34,096 nucleotides of DNA from Alphaproteobacteria bacterium (GTDB taxonomy: Bacteria > Pseudomonadota > Alphaproteobacteria > SHNJ01). Made by a program: the position numbers and the translations under genes. This document shows positions 30,505 to 32,871 of this stretch, one piece after another; positions within the stretch are counted from its first letter, which is position 1; each line of letters starts with the position of its first letter. The notes beneath the pieces were generated by a model that saw nothing but the letters and a program-made list of their open reading frames with translations, was not told where the DNA came from and made no database searches. The stretch lies in contig SHNJ01000031.1 of assembly GCA_004295055.1 (NCBI GenBank), positions 136,802 to 170,897 on the forward strand, given 5' to 3'.

Positions 30505-30530
30505 GCCCGCTGGAACAAGCGGGCTTTTTT
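30505..30530 (+). terminator. Intrinsic terminator after rpmB
   Basis: GCCCGCT (30505-30511) / AGCGGGC (30518-30524) with a GGAACA loop, then six T. The tgt start codon follows only 18 bp later, so tgt needs readthrough or a promoter inside this region. Confidence 0.92.
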
Positions 30531-30548: not shown

Positions 30549-31748
30549 TTGCAGTACCCGAATTTCAATTTTGAAATCACTCACCAAGAAGCGTCGTCGA
30601 ACGCGCGGCTTGGAAAATTGACGACGCCGCATGGCGTTATCGAAACGCCGGCGTTTATTTTTTGCGGTACCAAGGCGGCGATCAAAATCGCATCGCCCAA
30701 ACAAATGCGCGCGGCGAAAACGCAGATTATTTTGTCCAACACGTATCATCTGATGCTGCAACCCGGGCACGAATTAATTGCACGGCATGGCGGCTTGCAT
30801 AAATTTATGGGTTGGGACGGACCGATGTTAACGGATTCGGGCGGATTTCAAGTATTCAGCCTGGCGCATGGCGGCAAAAAAGGTGAAATTATCGGCAGCA
30901 GCCAGAATCAAAATCGCCCCAATACGGTTTTAAAAATCGAAGAAGAGGGTGTGAAATTCAAGTCGTATTTGGATGGCAGCTTGCACACCATCACGCCGGA
31001 AAGCGCGATTGATTTACAGCGCGGATTCGGCGCGGATTTGATTGTGATGTTCGATGAATGCACGTCTTATTATGAAACCAAGGATTACACCGCGCGTTCG
31101 GTCGATCGTACCCATCGTTGGGGCGAACGCGGTTTAAAACGTTTCTTTGATACCGCCGATGGCAAACAAGCATTATATGGCGTTAGCCAGGGTAGCGCCC
31201 ATGCCGATTTGCGCAAATATGCCGCCGATTGGTTGAACAGCCAGAATTTCTTCGGCCATGCAATTGGTGGATCGTTCGGCAAGGACAAGGCGGAATTACT
31301 GGCCACGTTCGAGGCTGCGCGCAAACCATTACGCAACGACAAACCGGTGCATGCGCTGGGCGTGGGCGATGTCGATGATATTTGGCATTTGGCCGGACTT
31401 GGCATCGATACATTCGATTGCGTTTCGCCAACACGTTTGGCGCGGCATGGTGGCGCGTTATCAAAAACCGCGCCGAATTTCCGTTTGAATTTATTCAACG
31501 CCCAGTTTCGCGACGATCCGCGACCGATCGATGAAACGATTGAATCCGAAGCATCCTGTTATTCCCGCGCCTATATTCATCACCTGCTAAAAGCCAAGGA
31601 AATATTGGGTTTGCAACTTTTGGCTTTACATAATATCGCTTTTATGAATTATTTGCTGACCGAAGTTCGCGCTTCAATCCGCGAAAACAGGTACGAGGCA
31701 ACCAAACGCGAATGGTTGCAAAATCAAAATTCCATACAGGCCGCTTAA
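30549..31748 (+). CDS. tgt: tRNA-guanine transglycosylase, atypical (Zn cysteines lost, altered substrate loop)
   Basis: Exchanges guanine-34 in tRNA for a 7-deazaguanine base. The 399-aa product keeps the catalytic framework: TDSGGFQVFSL, the nucleophile D290 in DTFDCVSPTR, and YSRAYIHHL. Three features are unusual. The substrate-loop motif GGLAVGE of preQ1-specific enzymes is GGSFGKD (240-246). The three zinc cysteines (E. coli C302, C304, C307) align with T330, E332 and A335, although the fourth ligand H361 is present. An insertion (KKGEIIGSSQNQNRPNTV) follows the DSGGFQVFSL region. From memory the loop and the insertion resemble chlamydial Tgt, which uses queuine. No queA is adjacent. The start is TTG after AAAGG. 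Confidence 0.9.
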   Translation: MQYPNFNFEITHQEASSNARLGKLTTPHGVIETPAFIFCGTKAAIKIASPKQMRAAKTQIILSNTYHLMLQPGHELIARHGGLHKFMGWDGPMLTDSGGFQVFSLAHGGKKGEIIGSSQNQNRPNTVLKIEEEGVKFKSYLDGSLHTITPESAIDLQRGFGADLIVMFDECTSYYETKDYTARSVDRTHRWGERGLKRFFDTADGKQALYGVSQGSAHADLRKYAADWLNSQNFFGHAIGGSFGKDKAELLATFEAARKPLRNDKPVHALGVGDVDDIWHLAGLGIDTFDCVSPTRLARHGGALSKTAPNFRLNLFNAQFRDDPRPIDETIESEASCYSRAYIHHLLKAKEILGLQLLALHNIAFMNYLLTEVRASIRENRYEATKREWLQNQNSIQAA

Positions 31749-32399
31749 ATGAAACAAGATCCGCGTTTTCCAAATTTGCACATTGTCGATCATCCGCTAG
31801 TGCAACATAAATTGTCGCATATGCGCGATGTGGAAACGTCCAGCGTGACGTTCCGCCAGATGTTGCGCGAAATATCCTTGTTGATGGGATATGAAATCAC
31901 CCGCAATATTCCAATGACCACGCAATCGATTAAAACGCCGCTAGCGCCGATGCAGGCGCCGGTTTTGGCGGGACAGGATATGGCGATTATTTCGGTGCTG
32001 CGCGCGGGTTTAGGCATGGCCGAAGGTTTGCGCGAATTAATGCCGCAAGCACGCGAAGGTCATATCGGCATTTACCGCGATCATGACACCAAAAAACCGG
32101 TCGAATATTATATTAAATTGCCCATCGAAGCAGCGCGGCCATTTTTTGTTTGCGATCCGATGCTGGCAACCGGTTATTCCGCGATCTATGCGGTCGATGT
32201 GCTGAATAAACATGGGATCAAGGACGAAGATATCAGATTCCTATCCCTGGTCGCCGCACCCGAAGGCGTAACCGTATTCCAAGCCGCTCATCCCAAAGTG
32301 CCGGTTTATACCGCTTCCCTAGACACGCATTTGAACGAAAATGCCTATATTGTGCCGGGTTTAGGCGATGCCGGAGACCGCATTTTCGGGACGAAATAA
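31749..32399 (+). CDS. upp: Uracil phosphoribosyltransferase
   Basis: Salvages uracil to UMP with PRPP. The 216-aa product has the N-terminal segment [25 protein letters not shown] and the catalytic [11 protein letters not shown]. The PRPP loop is modified: the usual VDPMLATG is [11 protein letters not shown]. The uracil-binding end [13 protein letters not shown] is typical. The ATG directly follows the tgt stop, so the two base-salvage genes form one operon. Length is normal. Confidence 0.96.
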
Positions 32400-32460: not shown

Positions 32461-32871
32461 ATGACCAAAGGATTAGGAGAAATACTGCACGTTGTCTATG
32501 TAGGCCAATTTCCTGTTCAACAAGCGATTGTTGGACATGCAGTAAATGCTTTGCAAGGGGAAGGAGCAGATTTAGAGCTTCATTGTGTTCGATCGAGTTT
32601 AGGATTGCGCGGCTTGAAATTTACTCCGGATATGGTGGTGGTAGATAATGCGAATATAACTACTGTTGACCAAGATTGGGGTACCATTCGTGCTGAAACA
32701 CGTGGAGAAATGGGGCCTGTTCCTGTAATTTTATTTGCTGATGTTAAAACAAAAGTGAATCCACAGTTGGGCGGACCTAATACTACGGTATTAGAGCATG
32801 TCAATAATGGGGAAAGTTTAACAACTGCATTGCTAGTTCATGTAATGGGCGGACGAGTAGCGCGCGTTTAA
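32461..32871 (+). CDS. Unrecognised 136-aa protein, possibly a degenerate receiver-like domain
   Basis: A clear GGAGGG before the ATG supports it. The alternating pattern resembles a (beta-alpha)5 receiver: ILHVVYVG (beta1), helix, DLELHCV (beta2), PDMVVVDN (beta3, with D62 where a phosphoacceptor could sit), PVPVILFAD (beta4), TTVLEHVNNGESLTTALLVHVMG (end). The acidic pair normally after beta1 is missing, so phosphorylation is doubtful, and the match is structural pattern only. Codons are markedly A/T-rich compared with upp. It ends 1 bp before the convergent cobT stop. Function unknown. Confidence 0.7.
   Translation: MTKGLGEILHVVYVGQFPVQQAIVGHAVNALQGEGADLELHCVRSSLGLRGLKFTPDMVVVDNANITTVDQDWGTIRAETRGEMGPVPVILFADVKTKVNPQLGGPNTTVLEHVNNGESLTTALLVHVMGGRVARV

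Follow-up and report, generated by a model that had tools for sequence, protein, structure and literature searches.

A tRNA-guanine transglycosylase of the queuine-type clade, without zinc cysteines, that probably serves a preQ1 route in an alphaproteobacterium

The stretch of DNA analysed here (the window, 34,096 nucleotides of an alphaproteobacterial genome of 1.95 Mb, 99% complete) carries an intact tgt gene (30549..31748, plus strand; 399 aa) for a tRNA-guanine(34) transglycosylase that lacks the zinc cysteines and belongs to the queuine-type clade, and we consider it probable that this is a working enzyme which, in this lineage, feeds the preQ1 route to queuosine. The gene opens with a TTG start (an AGG ribosome site lies immediately 5') and its product scored 385.8 bits against TIGR00430 (cut-off 306.75; residues 13-394) and 387.7 bits against PF01702, a search of the genome with the latter returning this tgt as its single member (i.e. 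no second tgt). The catalytic D96 and D290 and the base-binding D169 are kept in columns that are invariant in the alignment, where the retention of D290 and H361, as given in the preliminary description of this DNA, can equally be seen.

Two features that had been reported from the sequence, an altered substrate loop and an extra insertion, were confirmed by alignment. The loop reads GGSFGKD (residues 240-246, comprising S242 F243 G244 K245 D246; 31266..31286, plus strand) in place of GGLAVGE, the equivalent of Val233 being opened to Gly (G244, a match that is an alignment choice, as the one-residue loop gap can be placed in two ways), and a clade-specific insert of ~20 aa follows the TDSGGFQ motif (residues ~107-125; 30867..30923, plus strand). 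The comparison set comprised 57 genomes of the same class plus one of the same family (58 relatives in all). The majority of those with a match encode a preQ1-type Tgt (GGLAVGE, no insert), and 12 (all of the same class) combine a GG[SCT]LG loop with the insert. Moreover, when bacterial genomes were scanned, 80 loci with this kind of Tgt emerged (some of them from the same genomes), mostly from alphaproteobacterial MAGs and with Caedibacter, Odyssella, Azospirillum oleiclasticum and Micavibrio among the named records. About 90 relatives share the loop class and the insert, which are therefore not a matter of chance; the window Tgt has the insert and an opened loop, but with Phe243 in place of the loop Leu of the clade and Ile115 in place of its insert Lys. 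Phylogenetic analysis separated queuine-type from preQ1-type enzymes at 100/100 support, with the window Tgt on the queuine-type side, and at 40 clade-diagnostic sites this enzyme carries 28 queuine-type residues, 3 preQ1-type ones (V102, V135 and V272) and 9 that belong to neither; a tree constrained to join it to the preQ1-type enzymes is nevertheless not rejected (p-AU 0.38). Diagnostic sites and trees place the enzyme in the queuine-type clade, and the affinity suspected at the outset was in this respect well judged.

Searches of the window genome recovered a full-length QueA (431 bits) and a QueH (220 bits; encoded about 96 kb from tgt, on one and the same contig), and returned no QueF, no QueG and no match to QPTR/COG1738 (the YhhQ-type transporter that the preliminary description had proposed to look for). 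The genome holds the preQ1 salvage set (Tgt, QueA and QueH with no QueF; QueD and QueE were outside the search), and neither of the marks of queuine salvage (a lack of QueA and of epoxyqueuosine reductase, and the presence of QPTR) is found in it. In the only same-family genome (G001, 57% complete), in which no Tgt was found, queH and queA are adjacent (queA being cut by the contig end), and the dN/dS values between the two genomes (about 0.09 for queH and 0.22 for queA, with dS saturated) show purifying selection on both genes in the family. The QueA of this relative (L064:3394-4326) bears an in-frame insertion of ~24 aa, NPNVIPGLTRDPGLDSGLRRNDK, that resembles a dispersed palindromic repeat element. 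Upstream of its queH-queA pair lies a gene for a ceramidase-like membrane protein (PF05875; L064:1092-1847, G001:C105), which we regard as a transporter lead, PF05875 being presumably a possible relation of the HlyIII family. The HlyIII family includes a demonstrated preQ1 transporter (PMC11130926).

The only full QueC of the window genome was rejected as evidence of de novo synthesis, as it belongs to a type-IV-CBASS-like defence island, where it stands beside TGT-like, OGG-like, SLATT and TIR genes. PADLOC assigns it to its QueC model and the adjacent gene to its TGT model, and the island (L056:7330-10683, G000:C27) lines up genes for SLATT (DUF4231), a CBASS-type TGT-like protein, an OGG-like protein, QueC and a ThsB-type TIR protein; no CD-NTase was recognised among the ORFs read there, and the island is possibly a variant of type IV CBASS. 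As QueF is lacking and the only full QueC is of the CBASS type, de novo formation of preQ1 is impossible with the genes found (QueC and QueF being the synthesis genes that the search covered).

Insertion of preQ1 into tRNA has to come before QueA and QueH can act, and QueA is not known to have any substrate other than preQ1-tRNA. Because both enzymes need preQ1-tRNA, salvaged preQ1 is most likely the base that the window Tgt inserts (queuine perhaps as well), and because this enzyme is the single Tgt of the genome, it must be the one to supply the substrate of QueA; judged by this gene content, it probably accepts preQ1 again or still. The direct queuine salvage originally proposed is contradicted by a full-length QueA and a QueH that act after preQ1 insertion, and by the absence of YhhQ/QPTR from the genome. 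A strict form of it, with queuine inserted directly by Tgt and with QueA and QueH surviving as remnants or in another role, could appeal to the membership in the queuine-type clade, to the Gly at the Val233 position and to the relatives with this type of Tgt, almost all of which are devoid of QueA; we nevertheless hold it to be doubtful, as queA and queH are found under purifying selection in two genera of the family, QueA would be left with no substrate known to us, and the genome has no QPTR. Very improbable, in our judgement, is an indirect salvage by which a QueL-like queuine lyase turns imported queuine into preQ1 for Tgt, QueA and QueH: other bacteria do have such a route (PMC11130926), and it would explain QueA and QueH in a genome devoid of de novo genes, but the queuine-type pocket would then be pointless. 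According to the preQ1 route that we favour, external preQ1 would enter through a putative transporter, Tgt would exchange G34 for preQ1, and QueA followed by QueH would carry the tRNA-bound base through to queuosine; with Gly at the Val233 position, the opened pocket probably still admits queuine, and dual use is likely. Counting against this route, no known importer was found (QPTR being the one searched) and most of the diagnostic sites are still queuine-type.

Gene content across the clade gives this combination its setting. All 12 class relatives with a queuine-type Tgt lack both QueA and QueH, and QueA is likewise missing from 48 of 50 further genomes (which repeat at least one class relative, the L067 contig and G033:C9 both measuring 9455 bases). 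Of the two remaining matches, that of G098 is weak (27% identity to the QueA of the window genome) and may be a paralogue, and G108 (L143, L147) encodes a queuine-type Tgt together with clustered QueA, QueG and QPTR, which makes it a natural counterpart of the window genome. A second-Tgt search of 21 genomes found exactly one Tgt in 20 and none in G001. QPTR is present in 26 of the 39 genomes searched, commonly directly upstream of tgt and often in the order rpmB-QPTR-tgt (as observed in L080, L085, L092, L094, L095, L114, L119, L121, L128, L134, L136 and L140). Since QueA is nearly always absent and tgt often adjoins QPTR, queuine salvage fits the tested genomes of the clade generally. According to a published survey, complete genomes of Alphaproteobacteria retain tgt, queA and queG with the sole exception of Bartonella (PMC11570991); the clade described here suggests that queuine users form a broad group within the Alphaproteobacteria.

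The gene neighbourhood of the window adds the following. Between rpmB and tgt, QPTR is missing in the window and in the zinc-less Micavibrio-type group; a replacement transporter beside tgt in the Micavibrio-type loci was considered and dropped, as the conserved neighbour of ~300 aa looks by eye like a GGDEF protein. In the window, rpmB (ribosomal protein L28; 30180..30482, plus strand; PF00830, 1.5e-24) lies 5' of tgt, and the gap between them, which contains a terminator-like hairpin with a T run (30505..30530, plus strand; read directly from the sequence), is so short that a QPTR remnant would not fit. On the other side, upp (uracil phosphoribosyltransferase, UPRTase; 31749..32399, plus strand; PF14681, 2e-72) begins with the base that immediately follows the stop codon of tgt. 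The claim that tgt pairs with upp rather than with queA holds for the adjacency and fails in the contrast that it drew, given the full-length QueA of the genome; besides, upp says little, because it is also found near tgt in three relatives (L110, L117 and L118), two of which keep QPTR. An ORF of 136 aa situated 3' of upp (32461-32871) has zero Pfam matches, the window also holds ordinary genes (LPS, proline-catabolism, thiamine and CobT-type), and no preQ1 riboswitch was found near tgt, queA or queH at the Rfam gathering score.

Three sites at which all other members of the clade agree (100% conservation) are altered only in the window Tgt, i.e. K115I in the insert (where Ile115 replaces the clade-invariant Lys, in a segment, residues 107-121, that is predicted to be disordered with AlphaFold pLDDT < 50), G216S after the QG motif and L243F in the loop, so that I115, S216 and F243 are unique to this enzyme among about 90 relatives. 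The loss of these invariant residues is consistent with an altered base specificity, although the three substitutions are not required for coexistence with QueA, since G108 has QueA and none of the three. In a careful tree the window Tgt pairs with that of L067 (support 86/93), which has a similar zinc-less site and retains K115, G216 and L243 as in the clade, and whose locus shows the rpmB-tgt order of the window, followed by a cobT-like frame. The three substitutions look derived, because this apparent sister shows the residues of the clade in a genome devoid of QueA and QueH. A natural reversal, in which a queuine-specialised ancestor that had lost QueA came to use preQ1 again after regaining queH and queA, by way of the changes at K115, G216 and L243, is a history that we put forward tentatively. 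The alternative history, an early-branching intermediate that split off before full queuine specialisation, kept QueA and the odd pocket residues as ancestral traits and still inserts preQ1, seems to us unlikely: a tree with the window Tgt outside all other queuine-type enzymes is not rejected (p-AU 0.52; the AU test does not settle the position inside the clade) and the residues at V102, V135 and V272 are preQ1-type, yet the pairing with L067, the normal K115, G216 and L243 of that enzyme in a genome without QueA or QueH, and a QueH that stands in place of the QueG of G108 (a hint of later acquisition) all speak for the other side.

Returning to the pocket and to its probable use of preQ1, the equivalent of Cys158 is C171, invariant in the aligned clade members. 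In the Z. mobilis Tgt, Val233Gly left the affinity for preQ1 intact and Cys158Val lowered it, and these changes did not yield a queuine-using enzyme (PMC3660597). By analogy, Gly at the Val233 position combined with Cys at the Cys158 position would suit dual preQ1/queuine use.

The zinc site, in our view, tells a different and more common story. In the former zinc segment (residues 326-342, PIDETIESEASCYSRAY; 31524..31574, plus strand) the alignment shows no CxCxxC, its cysteines aligning to I331, S333 and a gap/S336, and of CxCxxC...H only the histidine H361 is left, with a single cysteine (C337) nearby. The substitution of all three cysteines had thus been read correctly in the preliminary description, its numbering (T330, E332 and A335) being off by about one residue, and the suggestion of a zinc-free enzyme agrees with the AlphaFold model (mean pLDDT 86), in which the site stays confidently folded, the former zinc segment being among the best-modelled parts (mean pLDDT 92-98 in blocks spanning residues 311-390). 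The cysteines are also missing from preQ1-type enzymes (L015, L016, L020, L021, L023, L025 and L049-L051) and commonly from queuine-type relatives, in several lineages of both types, and many other Tgts pass TIGR00430 without CxCxxC, so that the zinc site is not required for membership. Because of this recurrence, we rejected zinc loss as the marker of a special enzyme and take it to be common drift, not a sign of new chemistry; protein packing may have replaced the structural zinc, as would have happened repeatedly in related enzymes. An association within the queuine-type clade between zinc loss and the absence of QPTR beside tgt, strong in raw counts (62 concordant and 4 discordant cases), was also set aside, as it reflects few independent events, too few for a paired test to become significant.

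The choice that Tgt makes between preQ1 and queuine is understood only in part, and the natural queuine-type enzymes (about 90, in which the insert Lys and the loop Leu are invariant), next to one member that has neither and lives with QueA and QueH, name the residues to swap. Among the systems with which this one may be compared, the queuine TGT of the Chlamydia trachomatis type shares the opened loop (GG..G against GGLAVG) and usually occurs in genomes without QueA and QueG/QueH (PMC11570991); most of the window clade is accompanied by QPTR, and the window genome differs in having QueA and QueH and no QPTR. By the published motifs, queuine TGTs carry GG[LS][AS]G, where the window has GGSFG and its relatives GG[SCT]LG. 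Furthermore, the chlamydial-type TGT has Leu at the Cys158 position (PMC12301720) and the window clade keeps Cys (C171), so that one pocket marker argues against kinship with the chlamydial Tgt. With the canonical preQ1-type TGT (TIGR00430; Z. mobilis and E. coli) the enzyme shares its catalytic residues and, as predicted, its fold (the nearest solved structures to the AlphaFold model are those of Z. mobilis Tgt, TMq about 0.88), as well as the company of QueA and an epoxyqueuosine reductase, but it lacks GGLAVGE and CxCxxC, contains the insert of ~20 aa and is preQ1-type at only 3 of 40 diagnostic sites. The mitochondrial BL-TGT of Chloropicon, found with QueA, QueG and YhhQ, is likewise a queuine-type TGT kept with QueA and an epoxyqueuosine reductase, and differs in being eukaryotic, mitochondrial and of chlamydial origin, with QueG instead of QueH (PMC12301720). 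Lastly, the bTGT of Bartonella henselae is another case in which the pathway genes present disagree with the specificity predicted for Tgt, and offers the mirror image of the present one: it has a preQ1-type loop in a genome without QueA and QueG, and is reported to use preQ1 and, at high concentration, queuine (PMC11570991).
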